Source: a virus. From it: a stretch of 49,407 nucleotides of DNA. Positions within the stretch are counted from its first letter, which is position 1; the number at the start of each line of letters is the position of its first letter. Where the stretch lies: IMG/VR virus record IMGVR_UViG_3300024518_003403, positions 1 to 49,407 of that record; one strand, given 5' to 3'. The position numbers and the translations under genes are program-made. Below are positions 4,577 through 49,407 of this stretch, one piece after another. The notes below the pieces were generated by a model that was not told the DNA's origin, made no database searches, and saw only the letters and a list, made by a program, of their open reading frames with translations.

Positions 4577-5791
4577 ATGGCCGGTATTACCGGTATGGGC
4601 GACACCTTTGATCTGCCGAACTTCGTCGGTCCGCTGTTTCAGCTCACACCTGCTGACACGCCGTACCTGAGTATGTCGGGTGGTCTAACCGGTGGAGAGG
4701 TGGCAGACGCCACCGTCTTCAACTGGCAGACCTATGACCTCAGGGACGCGTCTCAGAACACACGGGTTGAGGGTCTGGCAGCACCCACCGCCGAACAGCG
4801 TGTCCGCGCTACGGTTCGCAACGTCGTACAGATCCACCAGGAAACTGTCGATGTTTCGTACACCAAGCAGGCCGCTACTGGTCAGTACAGCGATATCGGT
4901 TCAGCCCACCCGCACATTGATGGTGTGACAGACACCTCAGTGTTGTCGGAGTTGGACTGGCAGGTAACGCAGATGCTGAAGCAGATCGCCCGTGATGTTG
5001 AATACTCATTCATCAACGGGACCTTTGTGGAGCCAGCAAACAACTCAACAGCCCGCCAGACGCGTGGCATCTCTGAAGCCATCGTCACCAACGTAGAGAA
5101 CCAGCAAGTGGCCACCGACGACGTTACCGGTGAAGACGCCGATGACGTGGTTGATGCCGTTGCGCATCCTTTCTCGTTGAACGATCAGGTCAGGTTTACC
5201 GCCCTCACGGGTGGCTCAAACCTGTCCATTGACCGCCACTACTACTGCATCACTGTCAACGCCAACGACTTCCAGCTCTCCCTCACCAAGGGTGGAGCCG
5301 CGGTGTCGTTCGGTTCTGACATCACTGCCACATCGACGCTCGTCCAACTGGCCGCGCTCACCGATGTCATGGTGATTGATGCACTGCAGTCTGGTTGGGA
5401 AGACGGTGGATTCCAGGAGTCGGAAACGACCACAATCTGGACCAACGCATACAACAAGCGGGTTCTCACCACGCAGTTCATCACGAACGGCAACTACCGG
5501 GAGCAGTCCCGGAATGTTGGTGGTGTGAATGTGACCACAATCGAGACTGATTTCGGTCGCCTCAATGTGGCTCTCAACCGTCATCTCCGTACCCATGAGG
5601 TAATCATTGCCTCAATGGAGATGGTGGCTCCGGTGTTCTTGCCGATCCCAGGCAAGGGTTTCCTCTTTGTGAAGCCCCTAGCTGATACTGGCGCGAACGA
5701 TCAGCGCATGATCTATGGCGAGATTGGCCACAAGTACGGCCACGAACGCTTCCATGCCAAGGTAACGAACGTCACTGGCGGAATTACCTGA
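4577..5791 (+). CDS. Major capsid protein (HK97-fold, DUF5309/SU10-like)
   Basis: 404 aa with AAGGAG before the ATG. The N-terminus (a DTPYLSMSG segment, then a QTYDLRD region and conserved EGLAAPTAEQR and VDVSYTKQA) resembles capsid proteins of the DUF5309 type, which adopt the HK97 fold. Residues ~180-255 look like an inserted beta-rich domain (HPFSLNDQVRFTALTGG through TSTLVQL), a pattern seen as add-on Ig-like or decoration domains in phage structural proteins. The shell chain resumes at ALTDVMVIDALQSG. The capsid role is supported by the upstream scaffold and downstream neck and tail genes. Confidence 0.85.
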   Translation: MAGITGMGDTFDLPNFVGPLFQLTPADTPYLSMSGGLTGGEVADATVFNWQTYDLRDASQNTRVEGLAAPTAEQRVRATVRNVVQIHQETVDVSYTKQAATGQYSDIGSAHPHIDGVTDTSVLSELDWQVTQMLKQIARDVEYSFINGTFVEPANNSTARQTRGISEAIVTNVENQQVATDDVTGEDADDVVDAVAHPFSLNDQVRFTALTGGSNLSIDRHYYCITVNANDFQLSLTKGGAAVSFGSDITATSTLVQLAALTDVMVIDALQSGWEDGGFQESETTTIWTNAYNKRVLTTQFITNGNYREQSRNVGGVNVTTIETDFGRLNVALNRHLRTHEVIIASMEMVAPVFLPIPGKGFLFVKPLADTGANDQRMIYGEIGHKYGHERFHAKVTNVTGGIT

Positions 5792-33866: not shown

Positions 33867-36800
33867 ATGGCCTTCCGGTCCGCCAACGAAGCCTCTGCGA
33901 ACACCACGTCGGTTACCGTTACCGCACCGGCTGGGATAGCTGACGACGACATCCTCATCATGTCGGTGGACCGGGGTGCCCTCACCTCGGCAATCACTTG
34001 GCCAACTGACTTCGTTGAGATCACAGGTGGAGCCGTTGATTATGCCGGTGGCTCCCTGCGCGCTGCTTGGAAGCGGGCTTCTTCCGAGTCGGGCAACTAC
34101 CAGGCATCGTGGACAGGATCGGGTCGTGTCACGGCAGGTATCACTGCCCATTCTGGAGCCGCCACATCCGGCACCCCAGTCCTCGCCACCAACACATCCG
34201 GTGGTGCCTCCTCCACTCCAGACCCGCCGAACCTGACTGGTCTCACTTCCAGCGTCACCTACGACTTCGTAGCTGTTGCTGGTCAGGAAGGTAAGGGCGA
34301 CAACCGCTTCACGGGAGTCCCCACCAACTACACCGAACGGGTAGACATCGGCACATCCGGCTCCGGTTCTGGTGTTGGCCACTCCTCAGTTTGTATGGCG
34401 ACCGAAGATGCCCAAACTGGTCAGACCGCTGAGAACCCCGGTACCTTCACCTCAACCGTTTCTGATTCCTGGGCAGCGCTTACCATTTCTATCGCTGCCC
34501 CAGCAGTGGTCACTGTTACCCCCCAGGGCGACACCCCCATCGGAACTTCCATTACGGTCCCCCAGCCGTTCATCCCTCGTCTACCCGCGACCATCTCCCC
34601 ACCGGTAGCCACTCTCCCAACCCCCACCATCTCGGTCACTGCTGAGACCATCGTCACTCCCGCGGTCATCCCACTGCCAGTCGTAACGATCCCCACCCCA
34701 ATCGTTTCTATCCCGGCGACCATTATCCCGGCAACCATTTCCCCGCCAATTGCCACGGTCCCTACTCCAACTGTTCACGTCGCGCCCACAGTCACCCCCG
34801 CTGTGATCTCCCCTCCAGCTGCCACAGTCCCTACCCCAACTTTCACCAACAAACCCACAATCATTCCGGCAACAATCTCCCCACCGGTCGCCACGGTCCC
34901 CACACCCACAATCAACGTAGACAGCTCTGTCACCGTCACCCCGGCAGTCATAGCTCTCCCAGTTGTCACCATCCCCACACCCAACGCTGGCGAGACCGTC
35001 GTAGTCACCCCAGCAGTCATCACCCTCGGCTCCAAAGACGGGTTCGTTGCCCTTGACGGAACCGGCGACTATCTCAACTCATCTGCTGGTCCCAGCTCTG
35101 GCACCGGTGACTTCGAAGCTGTCATCTACATTGACAACCCTGATTGGACCCCAATCGCCAACATGACGTTGATGGCTCGGTACGGCTCCACCAACGCCAA
35201 CCGTTCCTTCCGCTGGCGCATCCTCTCTGGCAACAACTTCCAGGTCACGTTCAACGATGGCGGCATCATCCGCAACATCGGCACTGGAGTTACCGGCTAC
35301 ACCGATGGGGTGGGTCGCTGGCTGCGTCTCCGCTTCGATGCCGACGACGGTGCTTCCTCCGATGACTGGTTCATCGACTCTTCCACAGAATCCCCTTCCC
35401 TAGACCCCGCCGACATCACCTGGAACAACGATTTCAACCCGACTCCCTTCGGTGCTGTCGTAACCCTCAATGACCCGGCATCTGAGCCATACGAAATCGG
35501 TGCCAACGAAGGTGCTGAACTCATCACCGGCGACATTTACTACGCCGAGTTCTGGCGTGATGGATGGCGGGGAACAGGCACCAGGGTCTACGCCGCCGAC
35601 TTCCGTTCTGGTCCACCAACCTTCCCCCGCACAGACTCAGTTGCCTCGTTCGTGTGGCAGGAAAACGGCGACCCGGCAATCACCCTGCCAACCTCCGGCA
35701 CCACTCTCTACACACCAACCATCACGGCGGTCGGCGTTGTTGTAGTCACCCCCGCGGTCATCACCACAACCGCTGCTGTCCCTACCCCGTTTATCCCCCG
35801 CCTCCCCCAAACCATCCTCACCACCACAACCATCCCAACACCCACCATCGACATCGGTGCAGTGGTGGTCCTGCCCGCAGTCATCGCGCCCCCAGTTGCA
35901 ACTCTCCCTACCCCAACTATCACCGTTGCCCCCACGATCCTTCCGGCAACTATCAGCCCGCCAACTGCAACTGTTCCTACCCCGACTCTGACTATCGCGC
36001 CCACAGCTACCCCTGCAACCATCGCACCTCCAACTGTCACGGTCCCAACTCCAACTATCTCCACAGCCCCCACCGTCCTCCCCGCGACCATTGCACCGCC
36101 AGTTGCAACCGTCCCCACACCTACCTTCATCAACAAGCCGACCATCACCCCGGCCACAATCGCGCCCCCGGTAGCAACAGTTCCGACCCCAACCCTGTCG
36201 ATAGCCCCAACCGTCCTGCCCGTAACAATCGAAGTGATAGCCGCCGTTCCCACCCCTGGCCTTCAAGTCGGTGCAGGTGCCACTGTTGTCCCAGCCACCA
36301 TCACCGCTACCACTCTCATCCCACGCCCCCATATCCATCCCAACCCGCCAGTCATCACTACCACTGTCACCGTCCCGACCCCAACCCCGTCCATCCCGGC
36401 CACCACAACTCCAGCGGTCATCGCACCACCAGTCGCGGCCGTCCCAACTCCCACCATCACTATTGCACCGACCATCCTTCCAGTCACCGTCGCTGCAATC
36501 GCCGCCGTCCCGACCCCAACCCTCACCCAAGCTCCAACCGTCCTCCCCGCTACCATCAGTCCCCCAGTGGCAACGGTCCCCACCCCGACGCTGGTCATCA
36601 ACCTCAACACGTTCGTCAACCCGGCAGTCATCGTCACTACAACTACCGCGCCGACTCCAACCCTCACAGTCAAGCCGACTCTGACCCCGGCAACTATCGC
36701 TACCACCACCACTATCCCCACCCCCACCGCGGGTGTCTTCGGCCTTGCCCCAACCACCCCTCCTTTCACCGCCATCATCACTCACGCCAACCGCACCTCA

Positions 36801-36911
36801 TACACCACCACCACTCACGCCAACACCAAATCCAAAGCTGACATCACCACCGCCAATGCCTCATCCACCGCCCCAATCACCACAGCCAACTATTCCTCTA
36901 CTACCGTCTGA
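33867..36911 (+). CDS. Long Pro/Thr/Val-repeat fibre with LamG-like domain
   Basis: 1,014 aa. Residues ~1-210 are a beta-sandwich-like head. Residues ~215-390 hold about six copies of an ~18-20-aa repeat ending VPTPT. Residues ~390-600 are a laminin-G/concanavalin-like domain (FVALDGTGDYLNSS, then IYYAEFWRDG), a typical glycan binder. Residues ~610-960 hold about fifteen more repeats (core PATIAPPVATVPTPT). The tail is Thr/Ser/Asn-rich. Regular Pro and branched residues suggest a stiff, extended stalk. It probably projects from the particle and binds surface sugars. Next to the terminase, far from the tail module. Confidence 0.75.
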   Translation: MAFRSANEASANTTSVTVTAPAGIADDDILIMSVDRGALTSAITWPTDFVEITGGAVDYAGGSLRAAWKRASSESGNYQASWTGSGRVTAGITAHSGAATSGTPVLATNTSGGASSTPDPPNLTGLTSSVTYDFVAVAGQEGKGDNRFTGVPTNYTERVDIGTSGSGSGVGHSSVCMATEDAQTGQTAENPGTFTSTVSDSWAALTISIAAPAVVTVTPQGDTPIGTSITVPQPFIPRLPATISPPVATLPTPTISVTAETIVTPAVIPLPVVTIPTPIVSIPATIIPATISPPIATVPTPTVHVAPTVTPAVISPPAATVPTPTFTNKPTIIPATISPPVATVPTPTINVDSSVTVTPAVIALPVVTIPTPNAGETVVVTPAVITLGSKDGFVALDGTGDYLNSSAGPSSGTGDFEAVIYIDNPDWTPIANMTLMARYGSTNANRSFRWRILSGNNFQVTFNDGGIIRNIGTGVTGYTDGVGRWLRLRFDADDGASSDDWFIDSSTESPSLDPADITWNNDFNPTPFGAVVTLNDPASEPYEIGANEGAELITGDIYYAEFWRDGWRGTGTRVYAADFRSGPPTFPRTDSVASFVWQENGDPAITLPTSGTTLYTPTITAVGVVVVTPAVITTTAAVPTPFIPRLPQTILTTTTIPTPTIDIGAVVVLPAVIAPPVATLPTPTITVAPTILPATISPPTATVPTPTLTIAPTATPATIAPPTVTVPTPTISTAPTVLPATIAPPVATVPTPTFINKPTITPATIAPPVATVPTPTLSIAPTVLPVTIEVIAAVPTPGLQVGAGATVVPATITATTLIPRPHIHPNPPVITTTVTVPTPTPSIPATTTPAVIAPPVAAVPTPTITIAPTILPVTVAAIAAVPTPTLTQAPTVLPATISPPVATVPTPTLVINLNTFVNPAVIVTTTTAPTPTLTVKPTLTPATIATTTTIPTPTAGVFGLAPTTPPFTAIITHANRTSYTTTTHANTKSKADITTANASSTAPITTANYSSTTV
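34590..35025 (+). repeat. First tandem repeat block of the fibre gene
   Basis: About six degenerate 54-60-bp units, each with a CCnACCCC-type string encoding PTP followed by Thr/Ile/Val codons. Protein repeats are better conserved than DNA, which argues for age and selection instead of recent expansion. Confidence 0.7.
35730..36735 (+). repeat. Second tandem repeat block of the fibre gene
   Basis: About fifteen degenerate units of ~60 bp, interrupted near 36250-36340 by two divergent units (PTPGLQVGAGA and IPRPHIH). The region generates long open frames on other strands and frames because codon content is repetitive; those are not genes. Confidence 0.7.
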
Positions 36912-36913
36912 TC

Positions 36914-38974
36914 ATGCCCGCACCCAAAATCCGCATTTGTCAGGGACCGGACTGCACTAACAAGTTCGAATGGTCAGGCATTGGCCGACCCAAGTCTTAC
37001 TGCTCCCCTCGCTGTGCCACCATCGCCAGCGAGATGCGGAAGTACGGACCTAAAGGCATCTACCCAACCTGCCTCATGGATGGATGCGAAGATCCAGTCC
37101 TTCCCCCCAAAACCAAGTACTGCACCGCTCTCCACCAACGCCGCCAGAAAATGCGGAATCAACGCAACGGTGTCGTCCCCTCTGAACGGGTTCTCCGCCG
37201 CAAGGGTCCCCGGTATGTTGAATTCCTTCGCCGTGGGTTTGGCGAGAAGATCAAATCCAAAGAGCTGAAACGAACCGACGTGGCCAAAATCATGGGCCTC
37301 ACTGACGCCACCATTTCCCGCTATCACTCCACTTGGGAAGCGGACATGGCCGACCAACAGCTCCGCCGCGGATGGTCAGGTCCCCAGTCCTCAATGGGCC
37401 TTACCTACTTCCTCGAAGACAAAGACGTGGATGAGTTGGTTGAACAGTTCATTGAGTTCAGGGACAAGTATTTCCGTACCGGCCAAGGCCACCCCTACTT
37501 CACCTCTGCCTTCCACGTCAGTTGGATCACCGCAATCCTTCAAGCACTCAAACACGGTGGTGAACTCCAGATCCTCTCTCCACCTAGACATGGCAAAACC
37601 GACTTGATGATCCATTTCGCTGTCTGGCTCATCGTCCATGTCCCCAACATCCGAATCATGTGGGTGGGGGGCAACGAAGACATAGCCCAAGATGCGGTAT
37701 CAGCGTGCAGGGACCATCTTGATGAAAACGAAGACCTCGTACATGACTTCCTCGGCCCTGGCCGCACCTTCAAGCCCGAATCTCGCAGTGGTAAGGCTTG
37801 GTCATCCACCCGGTTCACAGTCGCATCCAGGACCGTCACTGGGGTAAAGAGTCCAACAATGGTGGCAGTAGGACGCGGGGGCAAGATTCTCAGCCGAGAC
37901 GTTGACCTGATCGTGTGTGATGACATTGAGGATCACGGGTCCACTATTCAGCCTGGGTCCAGACAAAACACACGAAATTGGATGACCACGACGGTCGGTA
38001 GCCGTAAGGAAGAACACACCGCCATTGTTGTCATCGGTTCTCGGCAGCACGTTGACGACCTCTACGCTCACCTGCTCGATAACCCCGGCTGGGAGAAGAT
38101 AGTTGAAGAGGCTCACGACTCCTCCTGTGAACTCGATCCAGAAGTCTTCGACATCCATGTGGCTTGCATGCTCTTCCCTGAAATGCGGACCTACCGCTGG
38201 TTGATGTCAAGGCTAACCAACGCGCTCACAACTGGCGGCAAACACATATACGAAATGGTCTACCTCAACAAAGCCGTCGCTGCAGGCATGGAGATCTTCA
38301 AGAAACCCGCCATTGAGCAGTGCCAAGACCTGACTAGAAAACTCGGTGAAGCCCCCCAATTCCACTCCCTCTACCTTTGCGCGGGCCTAGACCCTGCAGC
38401 TACTGGCTATCAAGCTGCCTTCCTCTGGGGTTTCGATTTCAAGAACGAACTCCTCTACAAGATTGACAGTGAGAACCAAAAGGGTGGAGGCATTGAGGTC
38501 GCGCTTGAACAAATGCAGGACTGGTATAACCGCTACAACGTCAAGCATTGGGTGATCGAACGCAACCTGTTCCATGGGGGAATCAAGAAGGACCCTCGCG
38601 TCAAAAAGTACGCAGCTTCCAACGGGATCTATCTAGAAGAACATCAAACCACCGCTCAGTCCAAATGGGACGACACCTTTGGCATCACTACCATGGCTCC
38701 GTTGTTTGAAAACTCCCAGATCAACCTCCCCTATGCTGACACTTCCGCTCAGCAGAAGACCGATGTCTTCAAGCGCCAGCTCATCAACTTCGCCTCTGAC
38801 GTGACCCCCACAGGCAAACGACGCAAGATGCCATCCGATCTGGTCATGGCCGCGTGGTTCCCCCTCAAAGTGTTCAGGCGCAAAATCAAGGAGCAATCTG
38901 CCAATATGCAGGTACAGTATGAGCAGTCGTTCTCTGGATGGGACCGGACCAACTGGAATGAGGCACCGTGGTAG
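36914..38974 (+). CDS. terL: Terminase large subunit with N-terminal zinc-finger and HTH extension
   Basis: 686 aa. Residues ~9-80 have two Cys/His clusters (CQGPDC and YCSPRC; CLMDGC and KYCTALH). Residues ~118-143 are a helix-turn-helix (RTDVAKIMGLTDATISRYHS). The motor follows: Walker A PPRHGKTD (~223) and Walker B DLIVCDD (~330). The nuclease has GLDPAATG (~490) and MPSDLVMAAW (~638). The motor and nuclease package DNA and cut it. HTHs of this type normally belong to the separate small subunit that recognises the packaging site, so this looks like a small-large terminase fusion. No separate small-subunit gene is seen nearby. Confidence 0.85.
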   Translation: MPAPKIRICQGPDCTNKFEWSGIGRPKSYCSPRCATIASEMRKYGPKGIYPTCLMDGCEDPVLPPKTKYCTALHQRRQKMRNQRNGVVPSERVLRRKGPRYVEFLRRGFGEKIKSKELKRTDVAKIMGLTDATISRYHSTWEADMADQQLRRGWSGPQSSMGLTYFLEDKDVDELVEQFIEFRDKYFRTGQGHPYFTSAFHVSWITAILQALKHGGELQILSPPRHGKTDLMIHFAVWLIVHVPNIRIMWVGGNEDIAQDAVSACRDHLDENEDLVHDFLGPGRTFKPESRSGKAWSSTRFTVASRTVTGVKSPTMVAVGRGGKILSRDVDLIVCDDIEDHGSTIQPGSRQNTRNWMTTTVGSRKEEHTAIVVIGSRQHVDDLYAHLLDNPGWEKIVEEAHDSSCELDPEVFDIHVACMLFPEMRTYRWLMSRLTNALTTGGKHIYEMVYLNKAVAAGMEIFKKPAIEQCQDLTRKLGEAPQFHSLYLCAGLDPAATGYQAAFLWGFDFKNELLYKIDSENQKGGGIEVALEQMQDWYNRYNVKHWVIERNLFHGGIKKDPRVKKYAASNGIYLEEHQTTAQSKWDDTFGITTMAPLFENSQINLPYADTSAQQKTDVFKRQLINFASDVTPTGKRRKMPSDLVMAAWFPLKVFRRKIKEQSANMQVQYEQSFSGWDRTNWNEAPW

Positions 38975-40815
38975 CCCCAGCAGGCGCACTCCCTATCCCT
39001 GATTCACGCAACCCCCAGGACATACTCGAACGCGTCCAGTTCCTCATCCAGATCAATTCCGCCACTCTCAAAGCTCGCCTCCGCACCAAGAATTTGATGA
39101 ACGGTGGAGAGGCTGGATTGAAGGCGTTGTTGGGGGAGAGAATCAAGCTCACCTCCGACATGGTTCCTGCTATCAACTTGATGGACTCAGGCCTTCGCAG
39201 GCTTGGTCAGAAGATTGGGCGGATGCCGGATCTCCGCATCATGCCGTCTGGTCACAAAGACTCTGAGCGGGCTAGGAAATCAGCGGAGAAGCGAGAGCGC
39301 ATAGTCACCGCCTACGACCTTGGTGACAACCGCGACGAACAGATGCCTCAACTGGGCAGGTGGGTCCCTGGGTATGGATATGCCGCTTTTGTCATTCGTG
39401 AACGCATGGACGCCAATGGCTTCCCCTACCCATCCGCGGAACTACGCGACCCCTTCAACGTGTATCCAGGTACATGGGGAGTGAACAGCCAACCCGAAGA
39501 CATGGCTGTGATCACCCAGGTCCCCCACCGCACGCTCGCCCGCCTCTACCCCAAGCATTCAGCCGCAATCATGGAGGGTGCGCGCAGTGCTGTTGACTCT
39601 GCATCCGGTGGCCTCCTTCTTGCCAATACCACCACCAAATCCTGGTCCAACCAGTCCGGCAATGGCCTCCAAGTAGCCGAATACTTCGACCGCGACGGCA
39701 CCTGGGTTGTCCTCCCTGAAAAGCAACTAGTTGTCGATTTCGTCCCCAACCCTCTTCGTTCTGGCCCCCGCTTCGTCCTCATCAAGCGGTTCGTGTTTGA
39801 CCAGCTCATTGGGCAGTACGACCAGATCGTGGGCTTGATGGCAATGATGGCCAAACTCAACGTCCTGTCTGTGATTGCCCTTGAAGATGCGGTGTTTACA
39901 GAAACCAACGTGATGGGTGAGATGGAGTCAGGCCAATACTCCAAGGGTCGCAACTCCATCAACTTCCTCACCCCAGGCACCAACGTTGACAAGCCCATTG
40001 GTCAGATCCCCTTCCAGATGTTCCAGCAGATCGACCGGATTGAACGCCACTTGAGAATCGGCGCTTCATACCCTGTCCAAGATGACGGAGCCAACCCCGC
40101 CAACACTGCAGCAACAGGCCGAGGAATTGAACGGCTCGACTTCAACCCCTCCCTCGAAATCTCCGAATATCAGCTCGCCATCGGCAAGGGCATTCAGCGC
40201 GTTGATGACAAGCTGCTGGAGTGGGATGAAACCCTGTACAAGAACCAGGAAAAGCCGCTGTCTGGGCACATCAAGGGCGCTCCCTTCAATGAGTCCTACA
40301 TCCCCACCCGCGACATCAATGGCAATCACAACACTCGCCGGATCTATGGCGTTATGGCTGGCTGGGATGAACCCCAAAAGATCGTCACTGGGCTACAACT
40401 CATGCAGGGTGAAGTGATAGATGTTGAAACCATGCAGGAGAACTTGGACGGGTTGGAGAACCTGACCTTGATCCGAGAACGCATCAGGCGGAAGAAGGCC
40501 GAAGACGCGATGTTTGAGGCATTGCTAGTAGATGCCCAAAACCAAGATCCGACAGCTAGGGCATTGCTCGCTGAAGTCATTAACAACCAAGGCAAGGATT
40601 TTGAATCTGTACTCAAAAAGTACCTCACCCCTGATGAGCCTGAGCTATCCCCTGAAGAGGAAGCTTTCTTGCAGGCCCAAGGTGGTTTGGGTGGCCCCGG
40701 TGGTGGAGATCCCGCCCAGGTCCAAGGCCCACCTCCTGACGTAACCACTGTCCTGTCCCAGCTCCGTCAAGGTGGCGGGCTAGGCGGGGGCGTCCAAACG
40801 GTCGGACAACTCTAA
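38968..40815 (+). CDS. Portal protein
   Basis: 615 aa, GTG start seven bases inside the terminase end. Helical wing and clip-like regions surround a central segment (GGLLLANTTTKSWSN, then RFVFDQLIGQYDQIVG) in a layout typical of short-tailed-phage portals. The C-terminal ~80 residues are acidic, then Gly/Pro/Gln-rich and probably disordered. Placement directly after the terminase is the usual packaging order. The portal is the dodecameric DNA channel at the capsid vertex. Confidence 0.75.
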   Translation: MVAPAGALPIPDSRNPQDILERVQFLIQINSATLKARLRTKNLMNGGEAGLKALLGERIKLTSDMVPAINLMDSGLRRLGQKIGRMPDLRIMPSGHKDSERARKSAEKRERIVTAYDLGDNRDEQMPQLGRWVPGYGYAAFVIRERMDANGFPYPSAELRDPFNVYPGTWGVNSQPEDMAVITQVPHRTLARLYPKHSAAIMEGARSAVDSASGGLLLANTTTKSWSNQSGNGLQVAEYFDRDGTWVVLPEKQLVVDFVPNPLRSGPRFVLIKRFVFDQLIGQYDQIVGLMAMMAKLNVLSVIALEDAVFTETNVMGEMESGQYSKGRNSINFLTPGTNVDKPIGQIPFQMFQQIDRIERHLRIGASYPVQDDGANPANTAATGRGIERLDFNPSLEISEYQLAIGKGIQRVDDKLLEWDETLYKNQEKPLSGHIKGAPFNESYIPTRDINGNHNTRRIYGVMAGWDEPQKIVTGLQLMQGEVIDVETMQENLDGLENLTLIRERIRRKKAEDAMFEALLVDAQNQDPTARALLAEVINNQGKDFESVLKKYLTPDEPELSPEEEAFLQAQGGLGGPGGGDPAQVQGPPPDVTTVLSQLRQGGGLGGGVQTVGQL

Positions 40816-48285: not shown

Positions 48286-49112
48286 CCAATCGCCCCAACG
48301 AGATCAGCAGCCAGCCGACCCCGCGGTCAGGCCGGTCACGCGCCACCCTCCGCTCCCCCACAGAAGCTCTATCCGGTGGCGGCTCTCTAGACCTCAATGA
48401 CCCCAAAGCCATGAGACGCGCCAACATGATCCAGGTGTTCGGAGAGATGTCCAATGCAATAGCTGGGGGACAACGTGCCAACATCACCGACATGGCATTC
48501 CCCACCCTCAGATCTCTTCAAGGTCAAGGGTTCAATGAGGAAACGGACGGGATCACTGGTGGCGTGATCGACAACTTCACCCCGTCCGAACCCAAGGACT
48601 TCACCAGGCAGAATCCCATCCAGCCCGAAGACCTGGGTGAAGCGGTTGGGGCCAGTGGAAAGATCTTCCAGCTCCAGAACGTGGCCGCTGAATCATGGAA
48701 CGCCATGACCAAGGCTGCTCTCGCGGACGGGATCAATCTCAACAGTGATTCTGCCCTCCGCTCCTGGGACAACCAGCTCCGCGCATATGAAGACTTCATC
48801 AAGACGGGGAGAAACCAGAACAACGTGGTGGTCCCCAACATCCTCCCTCCTGAAAAGTCCCTCCACGTCCTAGGTCTAGCTGTGGACATCAACGGTGCAT
48901 CCAAAGGCTCAGTCGTCCATAACTGGCTAGCCGCCAACGCTGCCCGATTCGGCTGGACCCCCATTTCCAACGAAGCCTGGCATTGGGAGTTCAAGGGGAG
49001 CAAGTCGTTTGGCGGGGGAAGTGGTGGTGGGGGAGAAGATACCTCTACCCCCGTTGGTGACGCTTCCCAACCTGATCCAATAACCACTCCAGCACCGGCA
49101 GGTCCACGATGA
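48282..49112 (+). CDS. Virion-associated M15 (VanY-like) peptidase, full-length copy
   Basis: 276 aa, ATGA overlap with the upstream gene. A ~75-residue N-terminal extension (Arg/Ser/Pro-rich, then helical) precedes the catalytic part. SLHVLGLAVD gives the zinc ligands His ~194 and Asp ~202, and WHWEF near 233 gives the third. A Gly/Ser/Pro tail follows. It would cut peptide bonds of peptidoglycan at infection. From base 48515 onward it is a diverged version of the sequence at the window's left edge, probably the same locus in another strain. Confidence 0.85.
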   Translation: MTNRPNEISSQPTPRSGRSRATLRSPTEALSGGGSLDLNDPKAMRRANMIQVFGEMSNAIAGGQRANITDMAFPTLRSLQGQGFNEETDGITGGVIDNFTPSEPKDFTRQNPIQPEDLGEAVGASGKIFQLQNVAAESWNAMTKAALADGINLNSDSALRSWDNQLRAYEDFIKTGRNQNNVVVPNILPPEKSLHVLGLAVDINGASKGSVVHNWLAANAARFGWTPISNEAWHWEFKGSKSFGGGSGGGGEDTSTPVGDASQPDPITTPAPAGPR

Positions 49113-49407
49113 CCACCAACCCAAACGACCCATTCCTCCCGCCAGAAGATCGTGGCATTCCGATCCAGCCACCGAAACAAGATCCGACTCCTTCAGACAC
49201 TGGCAATGGCGGTGGAGGCGGTGGTGATGGTTTTACTGGTGTGGAAGAGTCAGGCATCGGTGACACCTCCAACCTCGTCCCCACCCTTGAAGAAGGCGAC
49301 ATCCCAGGCATCCCCCCAGGTGCTGAGTTCTGGAAGGTTGGCGGTCGCCATTACGCGGTCTTCTTCATCCCCGGCTCTGAACCCCCCATCCCCCTGGTCT
49401 ACCTCAT
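48515..49407. repeat. Right copy of 893-bp terminal imperfect direct repeat
   Basis: This is the partner of 1-893: identical for the first 99 and last 98 bases, diverged between. The window stops exactly where the second identical flank ends, which is what an assembler does when it runs out of a repeated node. Confidence 0.9.
49109..49407 (+). CDS. Putative internal virion protein, 3'-truncated by window edge
   Basis: The first ~99 codons of a version of the gene at 607-1920. The start overlaps the peptidase stop (ATGA here, TGATG in the other copy). The low-complexity linker differs in sequence and is four codons longer. From the VEESGIGDT segment on, the two are nearly the same. The window ends within the shared GIPPGAEFWKVGG block region. 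Confidence 0.75.
   Translation, partial: MTTNPNDPFLPPEDRGIPIQPPKQDPTPSDTGNGGGGGGDGFTGVEESGIGDTSNLVPTLEEGDIPGIPPGAEFWKVGGRHYAVFFIPGSEPPIPLVYL

Follow-up and report, generated by a model that had tools for sequence, protein, structure and literature searches.

Results

Two-gene terminases, in which a separate small subunit (TerS) bears the helix-turn-helix (HTH), are the rule (PMC9611059). The large terminase (TerL) gene in the viral record analysed here (the window, 49,407 bases, which is the whole record) raises the question of whether such an HTH can reside on the large subunit itself, and whether a separate TerS is then encoded at all. The first-pass annotation had proposed a natural TerS-TerL fusion. 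This proposal holds in part: a DNA-binding-type HTH with a zinc knuckle does sit on TerL, and its probable kinship with TerS is recognised by way of a sister clade of terminases, but a whole TerS does not, its core and stalk being missing. The features of the locus are given in Table 1.

Table 1. Features of the terminase locus in the window
Feature	Position	Strand	Basis
Repeat-rich protein, 1014 aa, upstream neighbour, not TerS	33867..36911	+	Sequence; no informative match
Large terminase (TerL), zinc-knuckle and HTH extension at N-terminus, 686 aa	36914..38974	+	phrog_38, NF033889, Foldseek
First Cys cluster, C9-C14-C30-C34 (residues 9-34)	36938..37015	+	Sequence; weak zf-CGNR match
Second zinc knuckle, C53-C58-C70-H74 (residues 53-74), family-wide	37070..37135	+	Conservation; model pLDDT 85-95
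HTH, residues ~99-153 (helices 101-106, 109-114, 120-127, 131-153)	37208..37372	+	AlphaFold model m9863f4052fb3, Pfam, hhalign
Adaptor 'FxxFRxxYF...FHxxW', start of TerL core, common to sister clade	37448..37537	+	Invariant residues
Walker A, SPPRHGKT, residues 222-229	37577..37600	+	Sequence; invariant among homologues
Walker B/catalytic acid region, DLIVCDD, residues 331-337	37904..37924	+	Sequence; D331, D336 and D337 invariant
RNase H-like nuclease domain, invariant acids D493, E549, D642	38375..38863	+	Invariant columns, Foldseek
Portal protein gene, overlaps TerL stop	38968..40815	+	tblastn to annotated Beephvirinae portals, E to 3e-19

The TerL core

The TerL reading frame comprises 686 codons from an ATG start with no internal stops, and its start codon lies 3 nt past the stop of the preceding gene. 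Residues 167-626 match phrog_38 (E=1.1e-55, PHROGs), and the protein scores 74 bits (7.8e-21) against the NCBIfam family NF033889 termin_lrg_T7, below the curated cut-off of 150 bits. In Foldseek searches the model of the whole chain matches 8dgc, 6z6d and 3cpe (PhiV-1 gp19, HK97 TerL and T4 gp17), and the nuclease domain matches those of P22, G20c, RB49 and SPP1, with a weak match to PF22530 in addition. The features of the TerL class are all present, namely a P-loop ATPase with Walker A and B motifs, an RNase H-like acidic triad and an adjacent portal gene, and the enzyme appears intact because the Walker motifs and the nuclease acids are invariant among homologues. The adaptor residues F179, F182, R183, Y186, F187 and W204 are also invariant. 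The nearest TerL fold and family is the T7-type large terminase (gp19, NF033889; PhiV-1 8dgc), a likeness that extends to the direct terminal repeats of the sister Beephvirinae described below. T7 has a separate small subunit, gp18, and T7 gp19 is not known to carry an HTH head.

The N-terminal head

The TerL core is preceded by ~165-187 extra residues, more than the ~145 of the first-pass annotation, whose two Cys clusters and HTH, placed in that order ahead of the ATPase and nuclease domains, were all recovered. A scan of IMG/VR returned at least 598 TerL relatives of the window, and conservation was assessed in the best 80 of them and in four MAG contigs, three sequences being cut by a contig end. 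The MAG contigs, considered as a prophage route to the host, are probably free virus. The first knuckle was seen only in this phage and in contig L002, which carries an identical TerL, among the best 80 of these at least 598 relatives and the four MAG contigs; its zf-CGNR match (residues 6-38) is weak (0.0045, below the cut-off), as are the Pfam treble-clef and CGNR matches to the predicted knuckles in general. The second knuckle follows the pattern C-x4-C-xn-[YF]C[ST]xx[CH]. C53, C58 and C70 are invariant in 15 non-redundant (NR) homologues, and all four Cys/His ligands are kept in 82 of the 82 relatives with a complete N-terminus, mostly as CCCC, though in some lineages the third or the fourth ligand is His in place of Cys. 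Such an exchange is, at the level of the alignment, the behaviour of a real metal site.

The same 82 relatives all carry the HTH too. As their overall identity is 45-51%, the retention of both HTH and second knuckle shows that the head is not a chance feature. AlphaFold modelling of the entire TerL chain from 15 sequences gave a model of middling quality (mean pLDDT 65), and a second model, of residues 46-190 from 77 sequences, reached a mean pLDDT of 85.9, with 92-98 in the HTH and 85-95 in the knuckle. Pfam HTH_23, HTH_28 and Crp match the HTH of the relatives, HTH_23 doing so in 9 of 15 homologues. The profile comparison of the N-terminus, through which kinship with TerS had been expected to emerge, thus gave generic HTH families but no significant direct TerS match, the one seen in the window clade being to phrog_309 (0.014) in 1 of 15 members. 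Profile searches of the PDB with the N-domain of the window clade or of the sister clade returned weak, non-significant matches alone (E>=0.2), and a Foldseek search of the N-domain model against the PDB and BFVD returned weak generic HTH matches (E>=0.25, none <0.001). The superposition of the HTH on TerS DNA-binding domains that had been anticipated was therefore not obtained, as the fold search singled out no TerS HTHs and found nothing significant; comparison of the predicted fold neither supports nor refutes a TerS origin.

It is also evident that the head leaves no room for the TerS oligomerisation core, with ~20 residues between the HTH and the TerL adaptor helix. Both the central helical core and the stalk of TerS are absent, and of the 180 positions of phrog_4044 the fused relatives match ~10-74. 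Judged by these alignments, the head would correspond to the HTH third of a TerS and is not a whole TerS.

A probable link between the head and TerS through a sister clade

The sister clade consists of the TerLs of Streptomyces Beephvirinae (Immanuel3, WRightOn and FlowerPower) and of Caudovirales sp. ct2KA10, and is represented in hundreds of contigs; the Beephvirinae proteins are annotated simply as terminase. These TerLs belong to the same TerL clade as that of the window and share with it the position of the HTH, directly ahead of the common 'FxxF..YL...HHxxW' adaptor, and a homologous portal, whereas they lack the zinc knuckle, carry a clearly TerS-like HTH and have a core ~27% identical to the window's. 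The sister-clade HTH matches phrog_4044, annotated as 'terminase small subunit', in 9 of 15 diverse members (best 1.6e-5), and also phrog_4102 (4/15), phrog_1482 (4/15), phrog_7344, phrog_3218 and phrog_309, with few other families. Moreover, hhalign aligns 43 residues of the sister-clade profile (prob 88, E 3.5e-6) with the TerS that Geobacillus phage GBK2 encodes as a separate, annotated gene. In GBK2-type TerS/TerL terminases, too, an HTH DNA-binding module lies upstream of the ATPase and nuclease. The N-domains of the window and sister clades align with each other over the whole domain (hhalign, E=2e-5) and over the HTH alone (7.8e-4, against 0.15-0.21 in reversed controls). Because the sister-clade HTH matches TerS families and the profile alignment joins the two clades, these results suggest a TerS origin for the HTH of the window clade as well.

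Besides this phage, more than a thousand related viral contigs carry a fused-head TerL. In a tree built from the core, with the N-terminus left out, the fused TerLs form one clade (98/92), although long outgroup branches leave its deepest placements uncertain. Most simply, the fused HTH would have arisen once, and the zinc knuckle would have been gained in, or lost from, one of the two branches. In two-gene systems (GBK2; Sf6/SF6/PaP3-type TerS, PMC9611059), the separate TerS gene encodes a helical oligomerisation core and a stalk, whereas the fused chain carries the HTH alone, on TerL. The fused protein would accordingly be classed as a member of TerL and not of TerS, and may work as TerS plus TerL in one chain. 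No description of a TerS-HTH/TerL fusion was found in the open-licence literature searched.

Search for a separate TerS

The first reading of the locus had noticed no separate TerS around TerL and had named the same lack in its relatives as support for a fusion; in the profile searches described here, none was found in the window or in the records of its relatives. No small-terminase family was found with PHROGs among the main ORFs of the window and its 45 leftover ORFs. In the relatives, for which 24-34 records were searched per TerS profile, the profiles match only inside TerL ORFs (~620-690 aa), an unrelated MAG contig excepted. Among 34 records, phrog_4044 gave 17 matches inside TerL ORFs and one free-standing match of 132 aa, which belongs to a normal two-gene terminase on that unrelated MAG contig and serves as a positive control; phrog_4102 matches lie only inside TerL, Sf6_terminase has one weak match, inside TerL, and Terminase_2 has none in these records. 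A TerS is also absent among the 84 annotated features of Streptomyces phage Immanuel3. Small terminases are highly divergent and fast-evolving, and the absence of a profile match is thus weak proof, suggestive and not final.

In 11 records searched with the head as a profile, no window-type head occurs apart from TerL except at a redundant assembly end. There, a second HTH that might have been a separate gene proved to be a redundant copy of the TerL region: the contig end (L087, or G010:C36:52500-54151) is 97% identical to the contig's own internal TerL region, a case of MAG assembly redundancy. Small ORFs upstream of TerL in the relatives (clusters c3, c5, c6, c7 and others) were also considered as TerS candidates, and none is recognisable as such; for the members sampled (<=5 per cluster), the window contains no homologue. 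Cluster c3 is a very basic ORF of 90-96 aa that overlaps the TerL start in ~25 relatives of one subclade (e.g. L054:5705-5995). It is without TerS features, and it is possible that it represents a packaging accessory factor of its subclade.

A proposed single-chain terminase and its alternatives

We propose, with a probability of about 0.6, that this gene encodes a single-chain terminase in which the HTH that is supplied elsewhere by a separate small terminase is carried in cis on TerL. The product would place an ATPase motor and a genome-cutting nuclease behind a zinc-knuckle and HTH head. At the base of this TerL clade, the TerS-type HTH would either have moved onto the large subunit or have been retained there in cis. 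As for the function of the head, we infer that it recognises the site on the concatemer where packaging or cutting takes place, that it positions nuclease and motor there, and that it loads the motor at the portal. Since the chain has no TerS oligomerisation core, any DNA-binding ring would have to come from the TerL subunits, in place of a separate TerS ring. Beephvirinae records with a fused TerL have exact direct terminal repeats (275 bp in Immanuel3 and 253 bp in FlowerPower). As these phages keep defined ends, site choice persists and something must recognise the site, and Immanuel3, which combines terminal repeats with no annotated TerS, makes such ends although no TerS is recognised in it. 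That a large and abundant phage clade packages without any TerS protein, one TerL ring recognising, cutting and pumping the DNA, is in our judgement evenly balanced.

A less probable explanation, which we nevertheless take as the main competitor, is that a divergent separate TerS, either like T7 gp18 or unrecognisable, recognises the site, and that the N-terminal HTH is an auxiliary or adaptor element. Large subunit gpP of P2 (Peduovirus) provides a partial precedent, as it likewise starts with an HTH-like segment while P2 retains a separate gpM; its HTH shows weak homology with that of the window clade (E 0.026), and PF06056 (Terminase_5, the gpP HTH) matches nothing in the window or in the other records searched, 24 in all. 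The poor conservation of small terminases would allow such a protein to escape notice, and the basic ORF over the TerL start in ~25 relatives could be a separate packaging factor, but the window has no counterpart of this ORF, and no TerS family occurs among the window ORFs or outside TerL in the relatives. Furthermore, many relatives have a divergently oriented gene upstream of TerL and the portal downstream, an arrangement that leaves no TerS slot.

Still less likely is that the head is a regulatory domain, acting in operon autoregulation or host-factor binding and unrelated to recognition of the packaging site. The HTH of the window clade does resemble those of generic regulators and transposases, and zinc knuckles of this kind are common in nucleic-acid enzymes, with HNH endonuclease families matching weakly; against this, the sister-clade HTH is specifically TerS-like, head-bearing TerLs are abundant, and, the redundant assembly end aside, none of the 11 records searched has a free-standing window-type head. 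It is very improbable that the extension is an annotation artefact arising from a wrong start codon or frame and missing from the mature enzyme. Several relatives have alternative downstream starts, yet every intact relative conserves the HTH and the zinc ligands as protein sequence, the start codon is coupled to the gene before it, and the model of the head is confident.

Both the role of the TerS ring and the way in which a small terminase transfers the DNA site that it has recognised to the motor are debated. If the single-chain reading is true, a separate TerS ring is dispensable, and a one-protein system becomes available for testing initiation, cutting and termination, which the Beephvirinae, cultured on laboratory Streptomyces and with fixed terminal repeats, make practical. 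The fusion may also account for the absence of a TerS annotation in such phages.

Gene neighbourhood and genome record

The morphogenesis operon of the relatives opens with TerL, followed in nearly all of them by the portal, and of the 67 loci whose upstream sequence is long enough, 27 have a divergent gene as the nearest upstream neighbour. The window has instead, directly upstream of TerL and in the usual TerS slot, the 1014-aa protein with Pro/Thr 'VPTPT' repeats, which among the loci compared occurs only in this phage and L002 and is an unusual insertion where the packaging operon begins.

The first 893 bases of the record (1-893) and the last 893 (48515-49407) align flush at 79.5% identity, and most of the differences affect the third base of codons in a VanY-like peptidase gene. 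The two ends are probably population variants of one locus at which a circular assembly closes, the alternative being a gene duplication, and the genome is probably nearly complete at ~48.5 kb. When rotated, the gene order runs TerL, portal, a giant gene, peptidase, glycosylase, capsid and tail, followed by leftward replication genes, and resembles that of Immanuel3. The major capsid protein (4577-5791) shows ~54% identity to those of Mycobacterium phage Gaia and Propionibacterium phages and has an apparent internal insertion of ~80 residues. With capsid relatives in these phages and TerL and portal relatives in Streptomyces Beephvirinae, the head module is mosaic.
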